Of a stretch of DNA of 64,000 bases, positions 29,393 through 52,218 are shown piece after piece; position 1 is the first letter of the stretch; every line of letters starts with the position of its first letter. The notes beneath the pieces were generated by a model, which searched no databases, was not told where the DNA came from, and saw nothing but the letters and a program-made list of their open reading frames with translations. The position numbers were made by a program, and so were the translations under genes. The stretch is from Candidatus Gastranaerophilales bacterium. GTDB taxonomy: Bacteria > Cyanobacteriota > Vampirovibrionia > Gastranaerophilales > Gastranaerophilaceae. The stretch covers positions 62,001-126,000 of the forward strand of contig CALVBT010000002.1 of assembly GCA_944325885.1 (NCBI GenBank). The letters run 5' to 3'.

Positions 29393-30088
29393 TTATTTTT
29401 CAGTAAATCCGTGGCTTTCTTCTATGAGCTGCATAATTTTGTCATCGGCGACTGTGTCATCTAATATTACAGTTATCCAGTATTTTTTATTCATGTGCCA
29501 GCCGGGGTAGAAATGCTCTTGTTTCGTTATTCTTTCAACCTTATCGGGGCTTAATTTTATCAATGCAATTTCAACGAGTTCTTTTTTGTCTTTTTGACCC
29601 TTTTGACCATCTTGAATTTTTGACCTGTCCACATCTAAAATTGCCAGATACCATTTTTTGCTCTCAGGGTTTCTGAAAATACCGCTCCCAGGAGTCTTTT
29701 CCCATAGAAATTCCGGTTCATTACCGTATTTTTTTATTATTAGATTTGTTATCCTGTTTGATTGAGGGTAGATATAATATTTTTTTGTAAAACATTTTTC
29801 TCTTATATCTTCGAGTATCTTTTCATAAGCCGCTCGAATTTCTCCGACAAACGCACCCTGTCCGTTCCCTCCCTCTATTCTCAGAGGCAGGAATTCATCA
29901 TTGTTTTCTATATCATATACGGTTGCCGTTATTTGTTCGTTTGTATTTACTACAACAACAGCCTTGAATAAGCCGTCTTGAAACATTTTTTCAAATACAA
30001 AGCTGTTATTCTGCTTTATAAATCCGTATTTTTCTAATTGATTGAAATCCGGAGAATATCTTTGAAATATTTTGTCTTCTATATTCAT
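29393..30088 (-). CDS. MmcQ/YjbR-family protein
   Basis: The 231-residue protein has a C-terminal MmcQ/YjbR (CyaY-like fold) domain: 'PEFLWEKTPGSGIFRNPESK', 'KWYLAILDVD' and 'PGWHMNKKYWITVILDDTVA' ending in 'LIEESHGFTEK'. The N-terminal ~100 residues form a second beta-rich part (VFEKMFQDGLFKAVVVVN) seen in longer family members. Such proteins are described as putative DNA-binding, but the role is not established. The gene is convergent with the arginase-family gene, 11 bp apart. Confidence 0.82.
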   Translation of the reverse strand: MNIEDKIFQRYSPDFNQLEKYGFIKQNNSFVFEKMFQDGLFKAVVVVNTNEQITATVYDIENNDEFLPLRIEGGNGQGAFVGEIRAAYEKILEDIREKCFTKKYYIYPQSNRITNLIIKKYGNEPEFLWEKTPGSGIFRNPESKKWYLAILDVDRSKIQDGQKGQKDKKELVEIALIKLSPDKVERITKQEHFYPGWHMNKKYWITVILDDTVADDKIMQLIEESHGFTEK

Positions 30089-30103
30089 AGTCTTAATTCA
30101 TTG

Positions 30104-30388
30104 TTATTTGTTTGTTTCATCATTGATTACCGGTGCGGGATTGTTCTTGTACCTTATGTATAGCCCCATATCGATAAGCAAAAATATCATGTTCAAAAGA
30201 TACAAGATGATAACCCAATCTCTGTAGAAGAATAATTTGTGAATTATTCCGCAAACATAACCGGTTAATATCAAACAAGAGAATGCAAAGCTTTTGCCGT
30301 GTACGCATTTTGCCTTATATGTTTTGTATGCAGCAATCGGCCAGCTTATTCCAAAACAAACCATCATCCCTGCTTCAAATATACTCAT
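30104..30388 (-). CDS. Small PQ-loop/SemiSWEET-like membrane protein
   Basis: The 94-residue protein has three hydrophobic helices: 'AGMMVCFGISWPIAAYKTYK', 'FAFSCLILTGYVCGIIHKLF' and 'VIILYLLNMIFLLIDMGLYI'. The 'GISWP' in helix 1 followed by 'G-K-S' resembles the single PQ-loop unit of SemiSWEET-type carriers, which work as dimers. The substrate is unknown. GGAG lies before the ATG. It is the last chromosomal gene on the left of the integrated element. Confidence 0.65.
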   Translation of the reverse strand: MSIFEAGMMVCFGISWPIAAYKTYKAKCVHGKSFAFSCLILTGYVCGIIHKLFFYRDWVIILYLLNMIFLLIDMGLYIRYKNNPAPVINDETNK

Positions 30389-30416
30389 TTTTATCTCCTA
30401 ATCCTTTTGTTAAAAC

Positions 30417-30446
30417 AAAAAAGCCACCTCAATGGTGACTTTTTTA
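30417..30446 (-). terminator. Terminator left of the element, probably original tRNA-Asp terminator
   Basis: AAAAAG-CACC pairs with GGTG-CTTTTT with one mismatch. On the minus strand it follows a tRNA 3'-end-like sequence (30449-30480), the same order as tRNA-Asp and its terminator at the right end. Confidence 0.75.
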
Positions 30447-30448
30447 TT

Positions 30449-30465
30449 AAATGGCGGAACTGACG
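30449..30465. repeat. Left attachment site (short repeat of tRNA-Asp 3' end)
   Basis: It shares the nine-base identical core AAATGGCGG with 52025-52033, and then matches 6 of 8. On the minus strand it reads as a tRNA 3' end (…GTTCC-GCCA). The frame of the recombinase at the right end would continue through this site if the element circularised. Confidence 0.6.
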
Positions 30466-30608
30466 CTTCTAGGTTCGAACTTTTAGAACGATATAGGAAG
30501 CACTTATTTTCCACAGATATTACAAAGATTTGTCATCTTATAACCAAGTTAAAACTAATTGCGTAATGTATGTTTATAGATTCTAAAAATAAATTGAAAA
30601 CAATTTCT

Positions 30609-33296: not shown

Positions 33297-33602
33297 ATGG
33301 AAAAAATAGAAAAAGTTAAAATAAAAACATTTGAAGATTTTAAAGAACAATTAAACAAAGTAAAGAAATCACAGTCAGAAATTGTTTTATCCTATTACAA
33401 ATACTGCCATCTATATGATAAGGATGAAGATTTGGATTTCAATTTCTATAAAGATTTAATTTTGAAAGAGCTTGAACCTTATGGCTTAGAACCTATAAAA
33501 ATCACAAATGATTTGGATTTGATTTTCAGATTTAAAAACAAGGCTGAAGCCGTTATCCACATTAAACCATTTGGGATTGACTACCTCATATACAAAAAGT
33601 AA
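33297..33602 (+). CDS. Hypothetical small protein of the element
   Basis: The 101-residue protein has a Lys/Glu-rich helical N-terminal half and a strand-rich C-terminal half (ITNDLDLIFRFKNKAEAVIH then PFGIDYLIYKK). I recognise no family. AAAGGAATTAAAG precedes ATG, and it is spaced like the neighbouring genes of the rightward operon. Confidence 0.55.
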   Translation: MEKIEKVKIKTFEDFKEQLNKVKKSQSEIVLSYYKYCHLYDKDEDLDFNFYKDLILKELEPYGLEPIKITNDLDLIFRFKNKAEAVIHIKPFGIDYLIYKK

Positions 33603-33669
33603 TTGTGCCACAGTAGGTAAACTTTGTAGAAAATCTAAAAATTCTCCAAACCAAAAGAAAGGATTTAAA

Positions 33670-34260
33670 ATGAGTAAAATATTTGCATACATAAGAGTGT
33701 CGACTCGTGAACAAAATGAAAATAGACAACTGGATGCACTTAAAGATTTGAAGATAGATGAAATAATCGTAGAAAAGGCTTCTGGCAAAAACTTTATAGG
33801 TAGAGAAAAATACCAACAAATGAAAGCTCAATTAAGAGAAGGCGATTTATTGATTATTCACTCGATTGATAGATTTGGTCGTAATTATAGCGAAATCTGC
33901 AAGGAATGGGAAGGATTGATTGCTAAAGGTGTTGATATCCAAGTCTTGGATATGCCTATTCTAAACACAAGAGATAATCAAAATGGATTAACCGGGAGAT
34001 TAATTACCGATATTGTATTAAAGTTACTAGGCTATGTAGCAGAAAAAGAAAGAACCAATATAAAAACAAGACAAAGGGAAGGCATTGATTCTGCTCTTGC
34101 AAACGGAGTTAAATTTGGAAGACCTAAATCAGAAATACCCAAAGACTTCATAAGAGCTTATGAATTATATAAACAAGGGTTGATTAAAGTTAAAGATGTA
34201 ATGTCGATGTGTAACATTGCAAAAAGTACATTTTATAAGTATTCCAGCCAAATAAATTAA
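33670..34260 (+). CDS. Small serine recombinase (resolvase/invertase)
   Basis: The 196-residue protein has the serine-recombinase catalytic domain: 'FAYIRVSTREQNENRQ' with nucleophile Ser at about residue 11, 'LREGDLLIIHSIDRFGRN' with the catalytic arginines, and the long E helix 'GYVAEKERTNIKTRQREGI'. A C-terminal HTH follows ('MSMCNIAKSTFYKYS'). This size fits resolvases and DNA invertases rather than integrases. It may resolve multimers of the element's circular form or invert a nearby segment; I saw no inverted-repeat pair to support inversion. The ATG at 33670 has AAAGGATTTAAA upstream. Confidence 0.92.
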   Translation: MSKIFAYIRVSTREQNENRQLDALKDLKIDEIIVEKASGKNFIGREKYQQMKAQLREGDLLIIHSIDRFGRNYSEICKEWEGLIAKGVDIQVLDMPILNTRDNQNGLTGRLITDIVLKLLGYVAEKERTNIKTRQREGIDSALANGVKFGRPKSEIPKDFIRAYELYKQGLIKVKDVMSMCNIAKSTFYKYSSQIN

Positions 34261-34299
34261 TGGTTAAATTTGTGGTATGATATAGAAGAGGTTAATTCC

Positions 34300-35043
34300 A
34301 TGTATAACAATCGCTTTAAAGATAATAATGAATGCAGAACAAAAATTAATGAGCACAGACCGCTATCTGAGGATGCTCTAAAGCAAATTAAAGAATATTA
34401 TAAAATTGGTTTAACGTACGCATCTAACGCTATTGAAGGAAACACTCTTAATTTAGCTGAAACAAAAGTAGTGCTTGAAGATGGCATAACTATTGGCGGT
34501 AAATCATTAAAAGAGCATTATGAAGCAATAGGGCATGCAAAAGCATTTGATAAAATTGTGGAATTATCTCAAAATGCTATTTTTACTGAAGAAGATATAA
34601 AATCACTACATAAGCTTTTTTACAACCAAATTGATGAAGTAAACGCTGGCAAATATAGAACCAGTCAAGTTATTATCACAGGTTCTGATGTTGAATTGCC
34701 AAAACCAGAAGAACTTAATGCAAAGATGGCTGAATTTGTTAATTCTCTGCCACATCTAAAGGAAACATTGCATCCTGTTGAATATGCTGCAATGATTCAT
34801 ATTATTTTTGTAAATATACATCCGTTTTTAGATGGCAACGGAAGAGTTGCAAGATTGCTTATGAATTTGGCATTGTTGCAAAGTGGTTATAATATTGTTG
34901 TAATTCCACCAGTAGTTAGAGCCGATTATATTTCAGCATTGCAAGATTCTAATCATGGGGATTATGTTCCTTTTGTAAACTTCATATCTGAAATGGTATT
35001 GGAATCGCAAAAAGAATATCTAAAAATTATTAGCAGATTTTAG
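34300..35043 (+). CDS. Fic-domain protein with N-terminal inhibitory helix
   Basis: The ~247-residue protein has the canonical Fic motif HPFLDGNGRVAR near residue 178 and an upstream flap region. Near residue 45 it carries TYASNAIEGN, matching the (S/T)xxxE(G/N) inhibitory motif of class II Fic proteins, so activity should be self-restrained. It would AMPylate, or otherwise transfer nucleotides to, protein hydroxyls. No separate FicA-type antitoxin is adjacent. I start at ATG 34300 after AGAAGAGG; a TTG 30 bases upstream is possible. It is the last gene of the rightward operon, after the resolvase. Confidence 0.9.
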   Translation: MYNNRFKDNNECRTKINEHRPLSEDALKQIKEYYKIGLTYASNAIEGNTLNLAETKVVLEDGITIGGKSLKEHYEAIGHAKAFDKIVELSQNAIFTEEDIKSLHKLFYNQIDEVNAGKYRTSQVIITGSDVELPKPEELNAKMAEFVNSLPHLKETLHPVEYAAMIHIIFVNIHPFLDGNGRVARLLMNLALLQSGYNIVVIPPVVRADYISALQDSNHGDYVPFVNFISEMVLESQKEYLKIISRF

Positions 35044-36065: not shown

Positions 36066-39000
36066 TTAATAATTCTCTGCAACTATCGCATAAATTCTTT
36101 TAGTTGTTTCTTCATCGCAATTAAGCGTGTTTTGTATTATCTGTTTAACTCTTCTGATTTTCATTGGATGAGTTTGATAACCTGCTGGAATGTTTTTTCT
36201 AAGTTCTGCATCTAATTTTATAGCAAGCTCTTCATTTGCATCCAAATTATCATATAGAGCCTTTAATGGTTTTATATTTATACTATCAGGATAATGCTTA
36301 CCCCCAGCTTGGATATCTTTTGCCAACTCTGTAATTTTTTTCAAGTATTCTTTATATTTAATTTTATCTTGTTTTTGTTCTTCTATAATATTTGTAAGCA
36401 ATTCAGACATTTTCTTATAATATTCAGGGTTAGAAGAATATTCATAATTTACAACTCTCCTAATATGGTTTGCTATAGTTTCAGCTACAGCTTTTTCTCC
36501 ATACTGATTTTCCATTTGTTCAAGTTTTTCATCAGCCTTATCACCAATAATAATCTCAATCAAAGGCATACCTTCAAAGTCAACTAGCTTATGAGCTGCA
36601 CCAGCCTCTATATAATTATCAATTAGAGTCCTCATGTCAGGCTCATACCTTTTTAAATCTATTGAATCGCCACTGGATAGAGCGACTAAATCCTTTAATC
36701 TTGTGTAATTAGCGACTTTTTCATCAATTTGTTTTGCTACTTCTGGAGTATATCCATACTCTTCATCTAAAATATCGCTTTTAAAATTTGCATAAGCTCT
36801 TATTAAGCTATTAACAGCTTTATACATATTTAATCTTTTTTTGTTATAAAATTCTTCGTCATCACCAAATTGACAACCAAAGAAATCTCTACAATCATCG
36901 TCAGTTCTAGGTTCTCTAACATCTTCACAAATACTATCGATTCTTTCAATAGCTTTGTCTAAATCAGCTCTTGCTTCTTCTTTCCTATCTTTTAACAATC
37001 CAACGATATCATCAGCGTCAAACTTTTCAAAAGCGTTAGAGGTGTAATCGTGAACAGATTTTTCAAGAGCGTTAAACAAATCTTTATAGTCAACAATATA
37101 ACCATAATCTTTAGTTTCACCATCAAGTCTGTTTACCCTACAAACAGCTTGAAACAATGTATGGTCTTGCATTTTTTTATCTATATACAAATAAGTCGCA
37201 GATGGAGCATCAAAACCTGTTAATAATTTATCTACTACTATTAACAGCTTCATATTATTAGGCTCTTTTTTGAACTTGTCCTTTACTTCTTTTTCATACT
37301 GTTCCGCAACTTTTTCTTTATTTGGAGTTTCATTACTAATTCCTAACATTTTCAAATATATATCATATTTTTCCAATGTTTGAGATGGAGTTTCTTCTCC
37401 AGTATCTTCTGTTCTGATATCTTTATGAGATGGTGAATAAGAGGTAACAACAGCACACTTCTTAAAATTTTTTGCTTGGAATATTTCCCAAAATTTACAA
37501 GCTTCATAGATACTGCCAGCAACAAGCATAGCATTACCTTTGCCACTTTCCAATCGTTCTTTTATGCCAAAATCATAGATAATATCATTTGCAATTTTTT
37601 CTAATCTTGAGTGAGAACTTGATACAACTTGCAAATTAGCCCATTGTTTTTTTAACTTTGTTTTTGCAGATTCAGTCAATCCACTAGTTTTAAGTTCAAA
37701 CCATTCATCAATTTTATCTTGCTGTGTTATATATTGAGGAACATCTCGAGGTTCATATCTTAAATCCAATATAACTTTATCTTCAACAGCTTCTTTAAAT
37801 TTATATGTATGAATATATGAGCCAAAGGTCTTAACAGATTCTTTGTTTTCCTTTAATAACGGTGTGCCTGTAAAACCAATAAATATTGCATTTGGCAATA
37901 TCTCTTTCATTGCTTCATGAAGTTTGCCAGATTGAGTTCTATGACATTCATCTACAAAAACAAGTATCTTTCCTTTAGGAGAAAACTCTTTTGAAATAGT
38001 TTTTTTAAGATTCTCTATAAACTCATCAGTTGCTTTATCATCGTTAGATTTTGTAGCACATCCGAATTTGTGAACTAACGAGCATATTAACCTATCTTCG
38101 CTTTTATCAAGTCTTTCAATTAAATCAGAGCCACTTTTTGTTCTAATTATTGTCTCGCCAACTCCAGCAAAAACACCTTCAATCTGCTCATCAAGTTCAA
38201 CTCTATCAGTAATTACAAGAACTCTTCCATCTGGATAAAATTCTTTGTACCATTTTGCAAGCCATACCATTGTAAGGCTTTTACCACTTCCTTGTGTGTG
38301 CCAAATAATACCATCATTGCCATCTTGAATTCTTTTTTGTGCACACTTTACACCAAAATACTGGTTTTGTCTACACAATTTCTTAACACCACAATCAAAC
38401 ACAATAAAATCGTGTATCATTTCAAGAAATCTTTTCTTGTTTAACAATGCTTTTATTTCATCAAAAAATCCTATTTTAAAAGCCTCTTTAGCTTCATAGT
38501 CGTATTCCTTCCACTGAAGATAATATTTTTCAGGTGTTAATGTTGTTCCATACCTCAGCCCTTGAGATTCATTTCCTGCTATTACAAACTGAACAGTCGT
38601 AAAGAATTGAGTAATTTCTCTTCTTTGATTTGTAAGATTTTGCCTTATCGCTTGTGCAACATCAACCCTACCACTTTTTAGTTCTATAACAGCTAATGCA
38701 ATCCCATTAACATAAATAACGATATCAGGTCTTTTTTCGTGATTTCCTTTATAAGTAACTTCTTCAGCTACATAAAAATCATTTTTTGTAATATCATTCC
38801 AATTAATATAATGTACTCTTTCACTAACAGAACTACCATCCAGTTTAAAAGCTTCACCATATCTAATTAATGAATAAAACTCTTTATTTGCGTTATATAA
38901 CTTATCAATATTATCATTACCAACACCCAATCTTGCAATATTTTCAAGGTGATTTATTGCTTTTCTGATTAGCTCATTGCAATAGCCTTGAGACTTCAAA

Positions 39001-39161
39001 AACTTTATCAAAGGCTCTTTTTCTATATTAGAATTACATTCTCTATCTTGCCAAAAACCAAGATATTTATATCCCATATCTTCTCTTAGCAACAAATCAA
39101 CAACCCTATTTTGGGTCTTTCGTTCTGTATCTCCAATTCTTCTTTCAAAAGTTATTGTCAT
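36066..39161 (-). CDS. hsdR: Type I restriction enzyme, R (motor/nuclease) subunit
   Basis: The 1031-residue protein begins with the HSDR_N nuclease domain (RPDIVIYVNGIALAVIELKS near residue 145, the D-x(n)-E-x-K nuclease motif). Two RecA-like motor domains follow: Walker A 'IIWHTQGSGKSLTMVWLAKW' near 285, the DEAD-type box 'DECHRTQSGKLHE' near 400, 'GFTGTPLLKENK' and the later 'LLTGFDAPSATYLYID' and 'VCRVNRLDG' motifs. It translocates and cuts unmethylated DNA in the R2M2S complex. It follows hsdS by 8 bp with TAGGAG before ATG. It appears intact. Confidence 0.96.
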   Translation of the reverse strand: MTITFERRIGDTERKTQNRVVDLLLREDMGYKYLGFWQDRECNSNIEKEPLIKFLKSQGYCNELIRKAINHLENIARLGVGNDNIDKLYNANKEFYSLIRYGEAFKLDGSSVSERVHYINWNDITKNDFYVAEEVTYKGNHEKRPDIVIYVNGIALAVIELKSGRVDVAQAIRQNLTNQRREITQFFTTVQFVIAGNESQGLRYGTTLTPEKYYLQWKEYDYEAKEAFKIGFFDEIKALLNKKRFLEMIHDFIVFDCGVKKLCRQNQYFGVKCAQKRIQDGNDGIIWHTQGSGKSLTMVWLAKWYKEFYPDGRVLVITDRVELDEQIEGVFAGVGETIIRTKSGSDLIERLDKSEDRLICSLVHKFGCATKSNDDKATDEFIENLKKTISKEFSPKGKILVFVDECHRTQSGKLHEAMKEILPNAIFIGFTGTPLLKENKESVKTFGSYIHTYKFKEAVEDKVILDLRYEPRDVPQYITQQDKIDEWFELKTSGLTESAKTKLKKQWANLQVVSSSHSRLEKIANDIIYDFGIKERLESGKGNAMLVAGSIYEACKFWEIFQAKNFKKCAVVTSYSPSHKDIRTEDTGEETPSQTLEKYDIYLKMLGISNETPNKEKVAEQYEKEVKDKFKKEPNNMKLLIVVDKLLTGFDAPSATYLYIDKKMQDHTLFQAVCRVNRLDGETKDYGYIVDYKDLFNALEKSVHDYTSNAFEKFDADDIVGLLKDRKEEARADLDKAIERIDSICEDVREPRTDDDCRDFFGCQFGDDEEFYNKKRLNMYKAVNSLIRAYANFKSDILDEEYGYTPEVAKQIDEKVANYTRLKDLVALSSGDSIDLKRYEPDMRTLIDNYIEAGAAHKLVDFEGMPLIEIIIGDKADEKLEQMENQYGEKAVAETIANHIRRVVNYEYSSNPEYYKKMSELLTNIIEEQKQDKIKYKEYLKKITELAKDIQAGGKHYPDSINIKPLKALYDNLDANEELAIKLDAELRKNIPAGYQTHPMKIRRVKQIIQNTLNCDEETTKRIYAIVAENY

Positions 39162-39169
39162 GTTTTCTC

Positions 39170-41029
39170 CTAATGACTATTTAGTAGATTTTTACTTTCT
39201 TGAATGGCTTTTATTATTGCACTATCTGTAAAGAATGGCTTTTCAAGTTTTGGCTTCCATTCTGCATTATTGTTTATATATTCTTTGATGTTGACAAGCG
39301 TTATTTCTTTATTTTGAGCTTTTAAATCAAGTATTGTATAGTCAATAGTTGCTAGGACCTCTAGTTCATTATTGCTTTTATAGCGGAAATTCTGTTCTAG
39401 CCATAATAAACTATCTTCTGAATAATACTTATCGAAATATGTTTTAGCTTTAGCTATTTCACTGGAAGCTATTAAGCCCCGTTGTTTTACTTCTTTCACA
39501 TATTTATTTCTAATCGCAATCCCTTCTCCTCCACTATATTTCATCTGTGGATTATATGGTCCCATTGCCTTTTTTAAATATTCATCTATTGGTAAATTAT
39601 TATGTCTTTTAAATAAATAAGATAGTTTTTGTCTTCTAAATGCTCCTAATGGATATTGATTACTTCCAAATTTATACGCTAACATTGATATAATAATTGC
39701 ATCTTTAAATTCATCATTTGCAACTTTTTTATTGGCAGGTGTACTCATTTTTTTTGCATTGAATAATTCAACTTTATTTGGACTATTTAAAAGTCTCTTT
39801 TTCCCGGTTAAAAGTTCTTGCATCATGCCTGTTTTTAAGTCTTTATACTTGTTAAGCTCTTTTTCTAATGCTTCAATTTCAGCATCCATATCAAATAATA
39901 AATGAGCAATCTTTTTTTGTTCTTCATATTTAGGTATTTTTATTGTAGATTGAATAAAATTATCTTTTGATAAGTTGTATCTTGTAGAGCCTTGAGCTAA
40001 TCGCATCATTAATTCTCTTCCAAATTTTGACCTAAACAAATATACTAAAAATAAAGAATCGACTTCGTTATTTTTCCTTAATCTAAATCCAAAACAAAAA
40101 CTATTTAAGTATAAATTTTCAATCTCATTCATTAAGACAGAACACATTCCGACTTCTTCGGGAGTCTCAGACGAAGTATTAAAGAAAATATCATTTTTTT
40201 TGCATAAGTATTGTGATTCTGTTGGCTTAATATTGACTTTTTCAAAAGTATTAGTATTTACAGAAATATTATTCATTATATTTAAAAATGTTATATAATA
40301 AGCATTTCCTGTTTCGAAATCTTGTTTTGTTTTACCAGATAATCCAGTATATGTAACTCCTAAGTCGCCTAAAATTCTATTCTCCCAATTCTCTTTAGGT
40401 GTAAGAAGTTTTTGCATAGTCGCAGTTTTTAGGTCTTTCTTTTTATTTATTAACTTTTGAGTTGCCTCAATGAGTTCATCTATATCACTCAAAACCTCTG
40501 CAATCTTCTCTTGCTCTGGTAATGGTGGAAGAAGAATCGGCAGATTCATAATAAGAGTCTTGTTTAATCCTCCTCTGCCTCCACCACCAGAAGACAATTC
40601 TCTCAATTCTTCGTATCTTTTATCAATGCATTGATAAAGAAATTCAGAATTAAAATATTTAGATGGAAGAATAGCAGCTATAGATTGGTTTGTTGACAGG
40701 TCAACATAATTTATTGCAGCAGTACCTCTTGTTTTCCCTTGCCCAGCTAAACCAATTAAAATAGAATTTTTCGGAATCATGTTTGCACTAGAATTATTTA
40801 AGCCAATTTCAGTAATTCTCCCTACAACATCATAAATTCTTTTGTTATTTAATTCTCCAGAACTCATCCATTTTATATTACCATTCCAATATTCAGAAAT
40901 AGATGTATTTGGAGTTCCTCCAGTTTTAACTTCGCTTTTATCTTTAATTTTAGCAACATCCCAATCTTCAGGAATATAGTCAAATTCTTCAGTAAATTTA
41001 TATCCTTGTTTTTCTTCTATATTATGCAT
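39170..41029 (-). CDS. hsdS: Type I restriction enzyme, S subunit with extra C-terminal domain
   Basis: Two target-recognition halves are visible. The first opens 'YIPEDWDVAKIKDKSEVKTG' and ends with the conserved 'LPPLPEQEKIAEVLSDIDEL' coil. The second opens near residue 215 ('NWENRILGDLGV') and ends 'PKYEEQKKIAHLLFDMDAEI' and 'LKTGMMQELLTGKKRL' near 415. A normal HsdS would stop there. This protein has another ~200 residues containing 'FRRQKLSYLFKRHNNLPIDE' and 'GPYNPQMKYSGGEGIA', which suggest a DUF4065-like (SocA/Panacea-type) helical domain; this is a tentative match. It overlaps the small membrane protein gene by 8 bp. Confidence 0.92.
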   Translation of the reverse strand: MHNIEEKQGYKFTEEFDYIPEDWDVAKIKDKSEVKTGGTPNTSISEYWNGNIKWMSSGELNNKRIYDVVGRITEIGLNNSSANMIPKNSILIGLAGQGKTRGTAAINYVDLSTNQSIAAILPSKYFNSEFLYQCIDKRYEELRELSSGGGGRGGLNKTLIMNLPILLPPLPEQEKIAEVLSDIDELIEATQKLINKKKDLKTATMQKLLTPKENWENRILGDLGVTYTGLSGKTKQDFETGNAYYITFLNIMNNISVNTNTFEKVNIKPTESQYLCKKNDIFFNTSSETPEEVGMCSVLMNEIENLYLNSFCFGFRLRKNNEVDSLFLVYLFRSKFGRELMMRLAQGSTRYNLSKDNFIQSTIKIPKYEEQKKIAHLLFDMDAEIEALEKELNKYKDLKTGMMQELLTGKKRLLNSPNKVELFNAKKMSTPANKKVANDEFKDAIIISMLAYKFGSNQYPLGAFRRQKLSYLFKRHNNLPIDEYLKKAMGPYNPQMKYSGGEGIAIRNKYVKEVKQRGLIASSEIAKAKTYFDKYYSEDSLLWLEQNFRYKSNNELEVLATIDYTILDLKAQNKEITLVNIKEYINNNAEWKPKLEKPFFTDSAIIKAIQESKNLLNSH

Positions 41030-41474
41030 TATTCACCGTACTTTTAAATTCTTTATTATCTTTTTGGAAACCATAATTTGCATTGCCAAGCACAAAATCT
41101 AGTTCTCCAAGCATTTCATTAAATCGTTTCATTATTTGAATCATTTCTTCTTGGTTTTTAACAGGATAGGTGTGGTAATTAAATAGAAAATTACACAGTA
41201 TTTTATATTTTTCTCTATCCTTTGTGTTTAACAAGAAAATAAATTTACTTGCTTTAGACATAAGCCATTGAAGAATCCTTTGAGCTTCGTCTTTGTTATA
41301 CACAGTAAATCGACTACACACCTCATCCAGTTCATTTGCAAGCTCAAGTCTTTGGTTTCTAATACTTTGAATATTTTGCTGATATGCCAAGTAACATTGC
41401 ACAGCACTAAAGAAAGTAATCGCTATAGCACACATCCATTCAGCATTTTGTTGTAATAAGTGTAGTAGTGTCAT
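41022..41474 (-). CDS. Small membrane protein inside the restriction operon
   Basis: The 150-residue protein has one N-terminal transmembrane helix (MCAIAITFFSAVQCYLAYQQ) followed by a ~100-residue helical cytoplasmic part with 'LANELDEVCSRF' and 'EEMIQIMKRFNEMLGELDFV'. No family is recognised. It overlaps hsdS by 8 bp and starts 28 bp after the OLD nuclease gene. Its position between a nuclease and a specificity subunit suggests a role in the same defence operon, perhaps as a membrane effector or anchor. That is inference from context. Confidence 0.68.
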   Translation of the reverse strand: MTLLHLLQQNAEWMCAIAITFFSAVQCYLAYQQNIQSIRNQRLELANELDEVCSRFTVYNKDEAQRILQWLMSKASKFIFLLNTKDREKYKILCNFLFNYHTYPVKNQEEMIQIMKRFNEMLGELDFVLGNANYGFQKDNKEFKSTVNNA

Positions 41475-41501
41475 AAAAATTTATTCCTTATAATCATTGT
41501 G

Positions 41502-43400
41502 TTAATTGTTTAAGTCAAAGTATTCAAGTATTTTATTGCAAATTACTTTTAATTTAGGATGATTACTAGATAAATTTGTAGGATTTGGCTTAAAATCTTC
41601 TGCTATTATTTTTTTTGCATTTTCAGTCAATTTTTCTACATCAATATCTTGATACTTTCGTCTAATATATATTTTCAATTCTTCAAGAATTGGTTTTTCA
41701 TTTGCATATTCAAAATCCCAACCCGTAACTTTTATCATTTCATTTAAAGCTTTTTTGTATTGTCTTATAACATATTCACTCTTTAGAGTATCTTCAATAG
41801 TTCCTTTTGAAATGATATTATCATCAAGTTCTTTTATTGTTTTAACATTATCATCAGAGTACGGGGAACCTAAATTAAGAATTCTTTTTTTATACTCAAT
41901 TCCATCATTATCAGCATCAACAATAGTAAACACTGGAACATTGTAGTAATTTAACATACTTGCAGTGGATACAATTTTTGAACCTAAGCCATTTGTTATA
42001 TTTATGCAATTATTCTTTTTTAGAGCATTTAGAGCTTGCTTTATTATGACACAATCTGAGTATCCTTCGACTAACACTTTATAAGGTGCCAACAAATCAT
42101 TAAGAACATTTAATCCAAATGCAATCCTCAACACTTCATCATCTGCTAAATCTTTAGTATTGTCCCATTGTACTATTTTAGTATTATTATTTGGTTTAGT
42201 TACAATGTAATGTCGTTCTTTATTTTTAATATCAATCATAAATTGGGAATGAGTTGCGATAAAAACATAATTATTTTGCCCAATTTTAAGCAATTCTTCT
42301 CTTATATATCTAATCCCAGAAGGATGCATGTGAACTTCTGGTTCATCAATCACAATTACATTATTTTTCAACATATTAGTTTCGTTTGCAACAGATATGC
42401 TCAAAATGAGAGATAAAATATGTTTAGCACCTTCACTCCTATCTTTCATTCCAAAGGAATTATCTGGGTCAGCTTTATCAATCACAAATATATCTAATTG
42501 CATAGTATCTTGAATGGTTATATCAAATTCTACAGAACTTTCTTTCCATACTTTTTGAACGTAGTCAGTGAGTGTATTTTTAAGCTTTGTCTCCAATCTT
42601 CTTATAGCTGTTTTATTTCCGTTAATTTCTGCAATTTTATTTGATATAGATTCTTGAGTTTTATAACCTGCAAGAGAAAATATGTTTTTTAAAGGGTATG
42701 ATATAGTTGAATCAGTTGCAAAATCGTTTAAATCAATTGTGTTTGTGATTAAATATTCAGGCTTTGCTTCCCATTTTGAGAAATTTAAATTACATTTATC
42801 ATATTCTTCATTAAATACATCTTCTAATATTGTATCTAATTCATTTTTTGACAGAGTTTTATATTCAATTGTTTGACTTGTTGATGAAGGAATTTTTGAA
42901 GTTAAGCAAATTTCATATTTGAAATTATCCTCTGGTTCACCTGAAGTTGAATCCAATTTTATATATGAATAATTGCTTAACATTTCTTCGTTTAGAATGT
43001 TAAAATTTGTACTATAACTTGTGATAAAAGAAGTTTTGCCTTTTTCTAAATATACATTAAGAGATATTTTATCAAATGCAAGATTGCTTAACAGGTCATT
43101 CGGTATATCTATATTATCAGATATTATACTCTTCCATTCTGATTCATCAGAGTATATAAAATCAAAATAAGTATCTACATATTTTCTATCTTCAAGTGAA
43201 GTATTTTTGAGGTCTTCATAATTTACAGGAGTTTTAGGTGGATTTATTAAACCAATAGCGTTTAAAAAATTAGATTTTCCAGTTTCATTTAGCCCAACTA
43301 ATACTGTTGTGTAACTTTCATCAATCTTTTTTACTTCAATATGTGTATCTTCAATAGACTTATAATTTAACACTCTAATATTAGATAATTGCAACGACAT
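41502..43400 (-). CDS. OLD-family ATP-dependent endonuclease (AAA ATPase plus TOPRIM)
   Basis: The 632-residue protein has an SMC/RecF-like ATPase: Walker A 'VLVGLNETGKSNFLNAIGLI' near residue 33, an ABC-type signature region 'RSEGAKHILSLILSI' and Walker B 'NNVIVIDEPEVHMHPSGIRY', then the switch His in 'VFIATHSQFMID'. The C-terminal TOPRIM domain follows: 'YKVLVEGYSDCVIIKQAL' with its Glu, and 'VFTIVDADNDGIEYK' with D-x-D. This is the class 1 OLD layout. OLD nucleases act in phage defence alone or with partners (for example GajA in Gabija). It sits between hsdM (11 bp upstream) and the small membrane protein, with AAGGAG before ATG. Confidence 0.9.
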   Translation of the reverse strand: MSLQLSNIRVLNYKSIEDTHIEVKKIDESYTTVLVGLNETGKSNFLNAIGLINPPKTPVNYEDLKNTSLEDRKYVDTYFDFIYSDESEWKSIISDNIDIPNDLLSNLAFDKISLNVYLEKGKTSFITSYSTNFNILNEEMLSNYSYIKLDSTSGEPEDNFKYEICLTSKIPSSTSQTIEYKTLSKNELDTILEDVFNEEYDKCNLNFSKWEAKPEYLITNTIDLNDFATDSTISYPLKNIFSLAGYKTQESISNKIAEINGNKTAIRRLETKLKNTLTDYVQKVWKESSVEFDITIQDTMQLDIFVIDKADPDNSFGMKDRSEGAKHILSLILSISVANETNMLKNNVIVIDEPEVHMHPSGIRYIREELLKIGQNNYVFIATHSQFMIDIKNKERHYIVTKPNNNTKIVQWDNTKDLADDEVLRIAFGLNVLNDLLAPYKVLVEGYSDCVIIKQALNALKKNNCINITNGLGSKIVSTASMLNYYNVPVFTIVDADNDGIEYKKRILNLGSPYSDDNVKTIKELDDNIISKGTIEDTLKSEYVIRQYKKALNEMIKVTGWDFEYANEKPILEELKIYIRRKYQDIDVEKLTENAKKIIAEDFKPNPTNLSSNHPKLKVICNKILEYFDLNN

Positions 43401-43411
43401 ACGATACTCCT

Positions 43412-45874
43412 TTAATACCCCATAGTAGCCAAATGAGCTTTTACTTTTGCTTTTAAGGCTTCTCTTTTGTTTTCTAATTGACTAACTGTTGATTCATAAC
43501 GCAACGAAACTTCTTTTACTCTTTTAGATAAAACTTGAGTCAAATCATTTAGATGTTCTTCAAATTTATCTTTTAATGTTGCAAGCCATTTATCATCAAC
43601 GACTAAAGTCTTTATTTCATCAACTGTAAGTTCTGCATATTTCTTTAGAACTTTATTATATAGACCTATTTTTATTTCTTTAATTTCTTTATTTAATTTA
43701 GCTTCTTTTGCAAGAATTTCAAGATATTTTCTGAGGAGTATAATTTCTTCTGCAAATACTGGATTATTTTTATTAGCAGTTATAAATTTTTCAACCTTGC
43801 CTTTAGACATCGAATCTCCATCATACAAGTCTTCTGTAACTTCTTGATTTACACCTTTTATATTCTTTTTGTATGTTAGAGTTAATCCATTAAGCTTTCC
43901 TTCATCAGAACAATTTTCTTCAAGAAATTCTTCTTTTTGAGATTGAACATCAGCAAGTTCATTTTCTTTGTCTTGAATTTGTTCTAAATCTTCAGGGAAA
44001 TATCTTTTCTCTACTAAAGGAGCTGGAACTAAGTCATTATAATAAGTTATGATTTCTTTTTTATTTTTTGTCTCACGATGCTCCTGAAGTTCAATTTTAT
44101 AACCAATTTCAGAAATAATATAAACATCATCCTGCATTGTTTCTTGCCAATATTCCATTAGCAACTGGTAAACTGCATATTTATCCGTAAGCTTATCAGG
44201 CTCATACTTAGTCAAAACAGTTTCACCTAAATCGGCAATAAATTTTTTAGGCTTAGTATTCAAAGGAATATTCCACAAAGTACTCTTATTTTCTTCTGCC
44301 CAAGCTTTAAATACACTATTGTAGTTATCTTTATATGATACAAAGTCGGAACTATTTATAATAGTAGGTTTGATTTGTTCCAAATCAGGCAATAGTTTTG
44401 AATATCCATCTGTATATTCAGCAAATAAATCCAACTTTGCAGAAGGAAATGCTTGCCAATACTTATCAAGTTCTTCTATATTAAAGTTTGGAATTCCTCC
44501 ATTTAAGTGTGCATTGATATCTTGGATATCTTCAGCCTCTTGAGTGTCTATGTATCTTGGAATATTTAAATTATATTCATTCTTTTCAGATATTTCGGAA
44601 ATTGGAACAAATCTTGAATACTTAGGGATTTCTTTCATATTATTAAAAGTATCAACAATCTTTTTAATATCACACTCTCTAAGTCTATTTTTATTTCCAT
44701 CTTTGATGAAATCTTTGCTTGCATCTATCATAAAAATACCTTGACGAGTTTCTGCATCAGCTTTATCCAAGACAATAATGCAAGCTGGAATACCTGTTCC
44801 ATAGAAAAGGTTAGAAGGCAAAGAAATAATCCCCTTAATCCATCTTTTTTCAATTAATGCTTTTCTAATATCAGCCTCTGCATTTCCTCTGAATAAAACT
44901 CCATGAGGCAATATTATAGCCCCTTTCCCTGTTTGTTTCATTGATTTTAACAAATGCAATAAATAAGCATAGTCTCCATTCTTTTCAGGAGGAACTCCCA
45001 AAGCAAATCTAGAGAAAGAATCTTCTGAAGGAGTTATTCCCATACTCCATTCTTTATCTGAAAAAGGTGGGTTTGCTACAACAAAATCAAAAGTTGTTAA
45101 TGTTGTATCATTGTCTTTATATTGTGGAGAGGCAATCGTGTTTCCTTGTTTTATTTCTGCAAGTTCATTATTATGCAGATACATATTCATAATAGCTAAA
45201 CCTACAGTCGCATTATCTTTTTCTTGACCATATATAGAAACTTCTGTTTGGGCTTCATATGCTACTTTTAAAAGCAAAGAACCAGAGCCACATGTAGGGT
45301 CATATATTGTTGTGCTGGCTGTTGAGATTCTATCTGCACCAATTACTTTTGCCATTATTCTGGAAACTTCAGCTGGAGTATAGAATTGACCTTTACTTTT
45401 GCCTGATTCTGCTGCAAATTTGCCCATGAGATATTCATAAGCATCGCCAAGTAAGTCATCGCCTTCTGCATTGTTCTTTGAGAAATCAATTTCATCTCTT
45501 TCAAATACAGCTATAAGTTTTGTTAGTCTATCAACTTGCTCTTTCCCATTACCAAGTTTTTGCGTATCGTCAAAATCAACTTTATCAATTAAACCAAGAA
45601 GATTTTCGTTTGCCTCTGCTATTTTTGCCAATATCTCTTTATTGATAAGTTCACCAATATTGGATTTACCTTTGAATTTAACCATATCATCAAAACTTGC
45701 ACCCTCTGGAACATCAACTAAAAAATTAGCATCAGCTTTAGCTTTATCTGAAATATATTTTACGAACAATAAGGTTAGCACATAATCTTTATATTGAGAG
45801 GCATCCATTCCCCCTCTTAATTTATTACAAGCATCCCATAATGCACCATATATTTCACTTTTCTTCTTAGCCAT
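43412..45874 (-). CDS. hsdM: Type I restriction enzyme, M (N6-adenine methyltransferase) subunit
   Basis: The 820-residue protein has an N-terminal HsdM helical domain ('LWDACNKLRGGMDASQYKDY'), then the N6-adenine methyltransferase core: 'QFYTPAEVSRIMAKVIG', SAM motif 'DPTCGSGSLLLKVAYEAQTE' near 195 and catalytic 'VVANPPFSDKEW' near 268. From about residue 480 a long extension (~340 residues) with coiled-coil segments follows and ends in a basic helix. It is longer than the ~520-residue E. coli type but fits the long HsdM subfamily. It is the first gene of the leftward operon hsdM-OLD-membrane protein-hsdS-hsdR-peptidase, with CAGGAG before ATG. Confidence 0.95.
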   Translation of the reverse strand: MAKKKSEIYGALWDACNKLRGGMDASQYKDYVLTLLFVKYISDKAKADANFLVDVPEGASFDDMVKFKGKSNIGELINKEILAKIAEANENLLGLIDKVDFDDTQKLGNGKEQVDRLTKLIAVFERDEIDFSKNNAEGDDLLGDAYEYLMGKFAAESGKSKGQFYTPAEVSRIMAKVIGADRISTASTTIYDPTCGSGSLLLKVAYEAQTEVSIYGQEKDNATVGLAIMNMYLHNNELAEIKQGNTIASPQYKDNDTTLTTFDFVVANPPFSDKEWSMGITPSEDSFSRFALGVPPEKNGDYAYLLHLLKSMKQTGKGAIILPHGVLFRGNAEADIRKALIEKRWIKGIISLPSNLFYGTGIPACIIVLDKADAETRQGIFMIDASKDFIKDGNKNRLRECDIKKIVDTFNNMKEIPKYSRFVPISEISEKNEYNLNIPRYIDTQEAEDIQDINAHLNGGIPNFNIEELDKYWQAFPSAKLDLFAEYTDGYSKLLPDLEQIKPTIINSSDFVSYKDNYNSVFKAWAEENKSTLWNIPLNTKPKKFIADLGETVLTKYEPDKLTDKYAVYQLLMEYWQETMQDDVYIISEIGYKIELQEHRETKNKKEIITYYNDLVPAPLVEKRYFPEDLEQIQDKENELADVQSQKEEFLEENCSDEGKLNGLTLTYKKNIKGVNQEVTEDLYDGDSMSKGKVEKFITANKNNPVFAEEIILLRKYLEILAKEAKLNKEIKEIKIGLYNKVLKKYAELTVDEIKTLVVDDKWLATLKDKFEEHLNDLTQVLSKRVKEVSLRYESTVSQLENKREALKAKVKAHLATMGY

Positions 45875-46027: not shown

Positions 46028-46438
46028 ATGAAGAAATTTTTAGTTTTATTGTTAATGTTATTTTTTACAAATGTAGCTTTTGCGGTTAATTCTTATGACC
46101 GTTATGGGCAAAAGACTGGTTCTTATAGGCAAACAACTTCAGGCTACAATTCATATGATAGATATGGTTCTAAAACTGGCTCGTATAAGGAAACATCCTC
46201 TGGTTATAACAAGTATGATAAATATGGACAAAAGACAGGAAGCTATAAAAAGACATCTTCTGGGTATAATTCCTATGATAGGTATGGACAGAAAACTGGT
46301 AGTTACAAGACAAATTCTAACGGTGTAACTACAAAATATGATAAGTACGGGCAAAAAGTAGGTTCATTCAAAAAGGACTCTTCTGGTAGAATTACCGAAT
46401 ATGACAAATACGGCAGAAAAGTCGGTAGCTATAAGTAA
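46028..46438 (+). CDS. Secreted YD-type tandem-repeat protein
   Basis: After a signal peptide (MKKFLVLLLMLFFTNVAFA) the mature protein is five and a half tandem repeats of 20-21 residues. Each reads Y-D-x-Y-G-x-K-x-G-S-Y/F-K followed by a Ser/Thr/Gly/Asn linker. The last copies diverge (KVGSF, KVGSYK). Such repeats suggest an extended surface or adhesin-like structure; no function is established. AAGGAGTTATGT precedes ATG and TATACT lies at 46003-46008. It is divergent from the restriction operon. An imperfect hairpin with CAGCTC/GAGCTG arms follows at 46516-46559. Confidence 0.75.
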   Translation: MKKFLVLLLMLFFTNVAFAVNSYDRYGQKTGSYRQTTSGYNSYDRYGSKTGSYKETSSGYNKYDKYGQKTGSYKKTSSGYNSYDRYGQKTGSYKTNSNGVTTKYDKYGQKVGSFKKDSSGRITEYDKYGRKVGSYK

Positions 46439-50468: not shown

Positions 50469-52085
50469 ATGAAAAAAGCTGTTTTATATGCAAGGGTATC
50501 AAGTACAAAACAAGATAAAGATGGGTTTTCTATACCTGCACAAATTAAATTTCTGCATGAGTATGCTAAGAAAAATAATTTTGAAATAGTTAAAGAATTT
50601 GTTGAAGCTGAGACTGCTAAAAAAGCTGGCAGGAAACAATTTAACAATATGGTTAGTTATCTGCAAGAAAATGAGGACAGCAGAGTTATTCTTGTAGAAA
50701 AAGTTGACCGACTTTACCGTAATTTTGTTGATTATTGTGCGATAGATAATATTAAAGGTTTAGAGGTTCATTTTGTTAAAGAAAATGAGATATTATCAGA
50801 AAAATCTCTTTCTAGTATAAAGTTTATTATTGGTATGCGAGTTTTAATCGCAAAACAATATATTGAAAATCTTGCTGAAGAATCAAAAAAAGGTCTAGAC
50901 GAAAGAATAGAGCAGGGATATGCGTTATATCCTGCCTTGGGCTATAAATATGGAGATGATGGAACACATAAACATGCTATTATTATTGACCCTGAAAGAG
51001 CTCCATATGCTAAAAGAATTTTTGAGATGTTTGTATATGATAATTACTCAGCATATACGATTAATAATATTCTATATGACGAAGGTTTAAGAAATCCTGA
51101 TGGAAATAAATATGCAGTTTCTACTATACAACGTATGCTTCGCAATGTTATGTATATTGGAGATTACATGTATCAAGGGAAATATTATCCAAATGGAAAA
51201 CATCCTGCTTTAATTAGTAGAGAATTATTTCAACTAGCTCAAAAAAAATTAAATAGTGCTGATGATAAAACTCGAAAACATGAAGTACAATTTCCATATA
51301 TAGGGATGTTCAAGTGTGGAGTCTGTGGTTGTAGTTATACTGCAGAACTAAAGAAAAAACCAAGTGGGAAACAGTATGTATACTACCATTGCACAGGTAA
51401 AGGTAAGATAAAAACATGTAAAAAAGAATCCTATATTAGTGAATCTAAGATAGATGCTTTTCTAGCAGAAATTTTAAAGGGTTTAAGTGATATCCCTCAA
51501 TATGTAATTGACGTTATTAAAAATGAATTGAAAATAGTTCATGACTTAAAAAATGAATATAGTATTCATAGTCAAAAAAATATAGAAAAAAGGATTAAAG
51601 AAATCGACCGTATGATACAAAACGGTTATAAACGCATGCTTAAAAATAATAATGAGCATGAAAATGAATTATGGAATACTACTTATCAAGCTTTAAGAGA
51701 AGAAAAAGAGGAATTAAGAAATCAACAATTAAAGTTTGATAAAGCTGATGATGACTTTTATAAACAATCAGATTTAATATTAAAGTTTTGTAAGAATGCT
51801 CATGCTCTATTTATAAAAGCTACTCCTGATGAAAAAAGAACAATTTGCGAAATTATAGGTTCGAACTTTATCGCAAATGGTAAAAATATAGATATAGACT
51901 TATATCCAGTCTTTTATGACATACTTTCTATGAAATATTTGGGAACTGAAAAAATAGCAGGGTTCGAACTCCCTGAAACCTCATCAGGGCAACAAAAAAG
52001 AGCCTCTGAAAAGGCTCTTGATTTAAATGGCGGGACCGACGAGGCTCGAACTCGCGACCTCCTGCGTGACAGGCAGGCACTCTAA
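50469..52085 (+). CDS. Large serine recombinase (integrase of the element)
   Basis: The 538-residue protein has a resolvase domain ('LYARVSSTKQDKDGFSIPAQ', nucleophile Ser near residue 11; 'ILVEKVDRLYRN'), the Recombinase domain ('LYPALGYKYGDDGTHKHAII' onward), a zinc ribbon (FKCGVCGCSY, then YYHCTGKGKIKTC), and a coiled coil near residues 360-430. This is the layout of phage and element integrases. Beyond about 51990 the frame passes through the tRNA-Asp terminator and then antisense through the tRNA, ending 'RTRDLLRDRQAL'. The last ~30 residues are therefore not native. In a circular element the frame would instead run from NGGTD into the left end and stop at 30566. Confidence 0.93.
   Translation: MKKAVLYARVSSTKQDKDGFSIPAQIKFLHEYAKKNNFEIVKEFVEAETAKKAGRKQFNNMVSYLQENEDSRVILVEKVDRLYRNFVDYCAIDNIKGLEVHFVKENEILSEKSLSSIKFIIGMRVLIAKQYIENLAEESKKGLDERIEQGYALYPALGYKYGDDGTHKHAIIIDPERAPYAKRIFEMFVYDNYSAYTINNILYDEGLRNPDGNKYAVSTIQRMLRNVMYIGDYMYQGKYYPNGKHPALISRELFQLAQKKLNSADDKTRKHEVQFPYIGMFKCGVCGCSYTAELKKKPSGKQYVYYHCTGKGKIKTCKKESYISESKIDAFLAEILKGLSDIPQYVIDVIKNELKIVHDLKNEYSIHSQKNIEKRIKEIDRMIQNGYKRMLKNNNEHENELWNTTYQALREEKEELRNQQLKFDKADDDFYKQSDLILKFCKNAHALFIKATPDEKRTICEIIGSNFIANGKNIDIDLYPVFYDILSMKYLGTEKIAGFELPETSSGQQKRASEKALDLNGGTDEARTRDLLRDRQAL
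51998..52019 (-). terminator. Terminator of tRNA-Asp
   Basis: AAGAGCCT pairs with AGGCTCTT around six bases. On the minus strand TTTTTTG follows. It lies inside the open frame of the recombinase gene. Confidence 0.85.
52025..52041. repeat. Right attachment site within tRNA-Asp 3' end
   Basis: AAATGGCGG-G-AC-C-GACG overlaps the last 14 bases of tRNA-Asp (52028-52041). It matches the left-end sequence at 30449-30465 in 15 of 17 positions. Confidence 0.6.
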
Positions 52086-52105
52086 CCAAACTGAGCTACG
52101 ATCCC
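52028..52105 (-). tRNA. tRNA-Asp (anticodon GTC)
   Basis: On the minus strand the 78-nt sequence folds fully. The acceptor stem is GGGATCG/CGGTCCC with one G-T pair; the D arm begins TAGCTC; the anticodon stem-loop CCTGC-CTGTCAC-GCAGG carries GTC; the T arm is GCGAG-TTCGAGC-CTCGT; and CCA is encoded. A terminator follows at 51998-52019. The gene is intact and marks the right border of the integrated element. Confidence 0.97.
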
Positions 52106-52218
52106 AATTTTATATTTAATTTTCAAGTTGGATGTAGCTCAGTTTGGTCTTAATCTTAAAACCGTTCGCTTTCGCTCACTGCGGGAGCTACGATCCCATT
52201 TAATTATTTAATTTTCAA
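52093..52218. repeat. Duplicated and inverted tRNA-Asp 5'-end fragments
   Basis: GAGCTACGATCCC plus ~21 following bases ending TTTAATTTTCAA occurs at 52093-52126 (as part of the tRNA and its upstream region) and again at 52185-52218 with a few differences. Between them, 52130-52148 (GGATGTAGCTCAGTTTGGT) is an inverted copy of the tRNA 5' half. These look like remnants of earlier recombination at this tRNA. Confidence 0.7.

Follow-up and report, generated by a model that had tools for sequence, protein, structure and literature searches.

An attachment site within a large serine integrase gene of Gastranaerophilales: support for a C-terminus exchanged on integration at tRNA-Asp

How can a recombinase gene come to end inside a tRNA gene on the opposite strand, and what would its product look like before the element that carries it had integrated? 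The question is raised by one locus in the window, by which we mean the whole 64,000-nucleotide stretch of Candidatus Gastranaerophilales DNA that was analysed. The right border of an integrated element there has the following features.

50469 to 52085, forward strand: large serine recombinase gene in its integrated form, 538 aa, open, with TAA at 52083-52085
51994 to 52024, unstranded: terminator-like hairpin, the right end of the element, downstream of the tRNA (from the sequence; relatives have it at the same position)
52025 to 52033, forward strand: attR core AAATGGCGG at the 3′ (CCA) end of tRNA-Asp
52028 to 52105, reverse strand: tRNA-Asp(GUC), the integration target, left intact

The recombinase stop lies 55 nt inside the convergent tRNA-Asp. 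Residues 1-522, as far as N-G-G, are the element's own, and residues 523-538 (TDEARTRDLLRDRQAL) are tRNA-Asp antisense; the hairpin doubles as code for the residues KRASEKALDLN. The sequence-only reading had held that a frame overrunning the tRNA antisense cannot have its native end there, and comparison with related elements supports this. The protein contains the Pfam domains Resolvase (PF00239), Recombinase (PF07508) and zinc ribbon (PF13408), and its model shows the fold of this class, with a long helix pair (336-381/387-438) forming the coiled-coil inserted after the zinc ribbon; Foldseek matched it to 9dxh at E 5e-17, with modest TM-scores. By domains, fold and a 5-bp motif offset described below, the open reading frame is assigned as a large serine recombinase (serine integrase), with recombination activity predicted. 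The 5′ end of tRNA-Asp (GAGCTACGATCCCA) occurs again at 52185-52198, 92 nt past the first, perhaps as a trace of an earlier insertion.

The left border of the element holds what appears to be the missing part of the gene.

30449 to 30457, forward strand: attL core AAATGGCGG, placed by comparison with G132/L187, from another genus, whose recombinase is 99% identical
30459 to 30566, forward strand: severed 3′ end of the recombinase gene, TDASRFELLERYRKHLFSTDITKICHLITKLKLIA plus stop

Here AAT-GGC-GGA-ACT-GAC encodes N-G-G-T-D at 30450-30464 and is followed by 33 sense codons and a TAA at 30564-30566, so that the left end, in the same codon phase as the recombinase, continues for 35 codons past N-G-G before its stop. 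These residues, frame and stop had been read from the sequence beforehand, and the coordinates proved exact to the base. The 9-mer AAATGGCGG is common to the left end (30449-30457) and the tRNA 3′ end (52025-52033). The crossover is placed within this 9-mer, because attL and attR of G132 match the window only inside the element, with host DNA on either side; its position inside AAATGGCGG is probably GG. A generic search for repeats failed to single out the att core.

The G132 copy (L187, contig C10) has a recombinase 99% identical to that of the window. Its integrase tail is NDEARTRDLMRDRHAL, from the tRNA of its own host, compared with TDEARTRDLLRDRQAL in the window, and its severed left-end tail is identical to the window's as far as the contig extends. 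The comparison indicates that the element was transferred recently between genera. An empty site is found in another genome of the window's genus (G018), where the left flank (29393-30399) is matched at 76% identity and is directly followed by the terminator and an intact tRNA-Asp, in matching synteny. The gene to the right of tRNA-Asp has a homologue in 23/23 genomes of the genus. The element and its main contents are as follows.

30453 to 52029, unstranded: integrated element, about 21.6 kb
30417 to 30448, unstranded: original host terminator of tRNA-Asp, pushed 21.6 kb away by the insertion (terminators of this sequence type also occur at other tRNA-Asp sites, such as L039)
33571 to 34260: small serine resolvase/invertase with HTH, adjoining Fic
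34270 to 35043: Fic protein
36066 to 45874: type I restriction-modification system
41502 to 43400: OLD-like ATPase

The OLD-like ATPase, which matches TOPRIM weakly, sits between hsdM and hsdS and may be defence cargo. HsdS (39170-41029) has a C-terminal extension (residues 419-609) with a weak match to a DarG antitoxin model (E 4e-6), and 46028-46438 encodes a secreted-looking protein with YDRYGQKTGSYK repeats. Several genomes of the genus also carry stacked non-coding cassettes of 173-230 bp beside tRNA-Asp (L034:445-848; L067:2526-2928; L045:651-1066; L038:2741-3134), each with a copy of the tRNA-Asp 3′ end at its start and its own terminator at its end. One cassette type is 82-90% alike between genomes, and the cassettes resemble non-autonomous passengers sharing this hotspot.

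Comparison with relatives shows the site, the frame, the conservation of the tail and both free and integrated forms, which together place attP within the integrase gene and have the C-terminus of its product exchanged on integration. The attP lies about 35 codons before the stop of the large serine integrase gene. On circularisation, the left arm would follow attP directly in the reading frame, and the product would be a 557-aa enzyme with predicted helices at its end. For integration this enzyme would join attP to the tRNA-Asp 3′ end, where it would recognise TCGAAC of the T-loop. The final 35 codons are then left behind at the opposite end of the element, and the integrase acquires a 16-codon tRNA-antisense tail. 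If the lost tail is needed for integration, or biases the enzyme toward it, integration would switch off or weaken the resident integrase and thereby stabilise the insertion, until another element supplied full-length enzyme or a neighbouring second insertion restored a complete gene. To this whole explanation, from the in-gene attP and the 557-aa enzyme to the tail swap and the tail-dependent integration bias, we assign a probability of roughly 85%. That the activity of the integrase changes with integration state is likely.

The simplest objection is that the frame runs through the tRNA by chance in AT-rich DNA after decay of a native stop. Antisense strands of tRNAs are often open, and an open stretch of 35 codons is available at 18-27% of positions across the element and window. 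However, the pattern is family-wide: of 84 recombinase homologues with a convergent tRNA or tmRNA close by, 65 have their stop inside it, a count of the overlap and not of the tail swap itself, compared with 1/17 other convergent ORFs, and that single control ORF resembles the recombinases at its end and is possibly a fragment of one. With 25 in-phase tails and free phage forms added, described below, chance has a negligible probability, and we regard this caveat of the sequence-only reading as disposed of.

Left ends of related elements were collected by DNA similarity, by matching of tRNA 3′ ends and by searching 239 genomes of the family at the protein level. In 25 of them an in-phase open tail of 35-45 codons carries the common motif RFELL...KIC.LI..L (aligned consensus NGGxDASRFELL..YY.HL.....KIC.LI..L..VA), with the +1 and +2 frames open in 0/25. 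Most of the 25 came from the protein search, which is biased toward open frames, and we therefore give beside them the left ends that came from DNA or tRNA-end matching without the protein search, of which 9/10 are open and 1/10 is degraded. Homologues had been expected to share a C-terminus like ASRFELLERYRK, and the predicted RFELL tail is indeed present in about 20 elements; several relatives contain internal stops within the coordinates given for them. Elements at tRNA-Ile also have in-phase severed left tails (WWGLTYSLTLYILKNAA, WWTLTYGLTLQIFKNAA).

Could the left end be conserved as att-arm DNA, with the open frame incidental? The residues RFEL are written by a TCGAAC motif of fixed position, as this would predict. 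Past the motif, however, the differences at codon positions 1/2/3 number 40/25/62 across ten pairs, pN/pS for the tails without the att motif is 0.37 (p 6e-9, the same number of pairs), and the codon signal vanishes or reverses in shifted frames. Phage contigs, moreover, hold the whole ORF. There is thus only a very slight chance that DNA conservation explains the tail, and the substitution pattern indicates codon-level purifying selection outside the att motif.

A tail that is coding could still be dispensable, with attP placed in the gene end for compactness, the residues after N-G-G functionless and the swap without effect. The catalytic, recombinase and zinc-ribbon domains all lie upstream of the site, and certain relatives have their stop in the core or before it. 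Such an arrangement would leave unexplained the purifying selection on the tail outside the att motif and its retention across subfamilies, both in phages and at left ends. The tail is also predicted to be ordered: in a model of a free form (L284), C-terminal helices span 482-500 and 503-515 at pLDDT about 67-81, and in the model of the integrated window form residues 491-527 are mostly below 50, both models coming from shallow alignments with pTM about 0.4. We find compactness alone improbable as an account, and favour an exchanged tail with a role in the reaction.

The exchange can be followed most directly by comparing free and integrated relatives. In contigs from IMG/VR, the integrase gene is found uncut. 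The free L284 has FFNNGG followed by INKPKLEPKFIYKLKTVLSQEFISKLKSFDFAA, while L285, integrated and 80% identical to it, has FFNNGG followed by TDEARTRDLLRDRQAL, the tRNA-Asp tail; the free L274 has LNNGG followed by VNKPMLELRQFTQFIYKLKTSINQDLISVLKIFKNAV. Similar contrasts occur at tmRNA (L289 free, L290 integrated), at a further tRNA site (L292, L295 and L296 free, L294 integrated) and at tRNA-Ala (L298 free, from one contig; L013 and L017 integrated), the pairs at tRNA-Asp and tmRNA being close relatives and those at the two further tRNA sites looser ones. Free and integrated relatives diverge after the att core. These contrasts support the earlier proposal that the circular form has a different, ASRFELLERYRK-like C-terminus, for which integration substitutes tRNA-antisense residues.

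Because endolysin, tail-chaperone and terminase genes lie just past the uncut integrase of L284 and L274, and the tRNA is absent, these contigs are most likely phage genomes with an unbroken attP. A small residual chance remains that a short phage contig is instead the junction of tandem prophages. At L284:6592-7455 there is a phage reverse transcriptase (phrog_1423, E 3e-53), possibly of a diversity-generating retroelement. A tandem arrangement is found in another Candidatus Gastranaerophilales genome (G210; L167:1-7400, named record L195), where two elements sit at tRNA-Asp and the first integrase continues in frame into the tail and stop of the second element. An out-of-frame junction would have spoken against the fusion; the natural uncut junctions in the phage contigs L274, L284, L272 and L273 and the tandem L167/L195 are all in frame. 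The useful free phages were found with queries A2, then L210/L274; with the fused window protein as query, the viral scan gave distant matches only. For the element in the window, no circular junction was seen, and a pattern search of its own genome matched attL alone; in plasmid and phage collections, relatives were all below 60% identity.

The two attachment sites share a motif at different distances from the core, which suggests how the target is chosen.

30475 to 30480, forward strand: TCGAAC of the attP arm, +23 from the core TGG, encoding part of RFEL
52046 to 52051, forward strand: TCGAAC of the attB arm, the tRNA T-loop, +18 from TGG

The motif starts 23 nt from the core TGG in 25/25 left ends (22 exact, 3 with one mismatch) and 18 nt from it in the intact tRNA. 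The attP/attB offsets are 23/18 for tRNA-Ala, 20/15 for tmRNA and 20/15 for L292/L294, so that every motif-bearing pair has TCGAAC displaced outward by 5 bp in attP relative to attB. For a Listeria serine integrase, an identical 5-bp displacement of the zinc-domain motif has been described (PMC3783163). A GG located 14-13 nt before the motif in attB is common to the Asp, Ala, tmRNA and L292/L294 types and is likely the crossover dinucleotide. Left ends at tRNA-Ile showed no TCGAAC at +23, and no mirror-image motif was seen on reading the right-arm half-site. TCGAAC is the tRNA T-loop and is near-universal in tRNA and tmRNA, which may therefore open many such genes as targets.

The targets found include tRNA Asp, Glu, Asn, Ile, Ala, Gln, Val, Tyr, His and Arg, along with tmRNA (L007, L290, L232), in hosts from Gastranaerophilales, Elusimicrobia, Zixibacteria, Acidobacteria, Fibrobacteres and Legionella. 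An 8-nt core scan did not find left ends for the His, Val, Glu and most Gln elements, and the Glu candidate in L122 is weak. Homologues ending well before the attachment site had been named as a result that would count against an exchange; none do so at tRNA-Asp, the exceptions being Saccharibacteria relatives at tRNA-Gln, which stop before the tRNA. Since these relatives end early and another Gln relative (L014) has its stop within the core, the swap is not universal.

At tRNA-Asp the integrated tail reads EARTRDLxRDRxxL in all cases, which raises the alternative that the antisense tail is itself functional and that integration switches direction, to an excision-proficient form, instead of inactivating the enzyme. 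The Mx8 integrase is also described as keeping an altered activity (PMC6070905). The constancy is explained by conservation of tRNA-Asp, though, and other targets yield unrelated tails of 2-30 residues, so that no tail sequence is selected as such. We consider a switch of direction unlikely, if less so than compactness, and prefer loss of the native tail as the event that matters.

The closest precedent is DsiB of the Dehalococcoides ssrA islands, a serine recombinase that always overlaps the att site and that, its authors suggest, may reach full function only while the element is circular (PMC3146451). DsiB and the window gene are both serine recombinases with a 3′ end overlapping att and a stop supplied from outside the element. 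They differ in the target, ssrA for DsiB (with the stop outside the island or in ssrA) and tRNA-Asp in the window, and in the small partner DsiA that adjoins DsiB and is not a neighbour of the window gene. The portion available does not present the DsiB 3′ fragment as conserved coding sequence and makes no free-form comparison (PMC3146451).

Other systems share the principle with different enzymes. In Myxococcus phage Mx8 (Tojo 1996 and Magrini 1999, cited in PMC6070905), attP lies within int, which acquires a new 3′ end on integration and then encodes a changed integrase. Mx8 and the window gene thus both have attP inside the integrase frame and a product altered by integration. Mx8 Int is reportedly a tyrosine integrase, and is said to be treated likewise by Islander, whereas the window enzyme is a serine recombinase; in Tojo's 1996 work on Mx8, 112 residues are said to be replaced by 13. 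In mycobacteriophage BPs, the gene altered by integration is reportedly the repressor and not the integrase. The abstract on BPs describes an attP situated within a coding gene, whose product is altered when integration takes place there (PMC4557955). The SSV-type 'suicidal' archaeal integrases, described as exclusive to archaea, have the target within the integrase gene, which is split by integration (PMC8371274). They are tyrosine recombinases from which the split removes the catalytic part, while the window enzyme is a serine recombinase with its catalytic domains intact. The serine integrases of A118/LI, phiC31 and Bxb1 share domain order and fold with the window enzyme, in contrast to which we know of no attP inside their integrase genes; the window system has attP in-gene, and its family targets tRNA and tmRNA. 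A literature search, with subscription papers mostly outside its scope, returned nothing on Gastranaerophilales integrases.

By analogy with Mx8 and the archaeal virus integrases, the tail may favour integration and its loss stabilise the inserted state. We hold more tentatively, at somewhat less than even odds, that the severable tail acts as a sensor of integration state. Full-length integrase would exist only before integration, and the trimmed one could not reverse the reaction alone. Because a second element inserted beside the tRNA would remake the complete first integrase (in frame in L167/L195), mobilisation would be tied to superinfection, and T-loop recognition by the zinc domain would let the clade shift between tRNA and tmRNA targets across phyla.

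While this kind of arrangement is itself already known, the family described here appears to be a widespread serine-integrase version of it, aimed at tRNA T-loops, and it adds to Mx8 and the archaeal SSV group a broad bacterial clade with 'attP inside int'. Serine integrases targeting tRNA genes were not known to the Islander survey. Serine integrases are in use for genome engineering, and if the tail sets direction it would provide a new way to act on them. The conserved left ends are also the first comparative evidence we have found that the lost tail is a real, conserved protein segment, and they answer the question that DsiB had raised.
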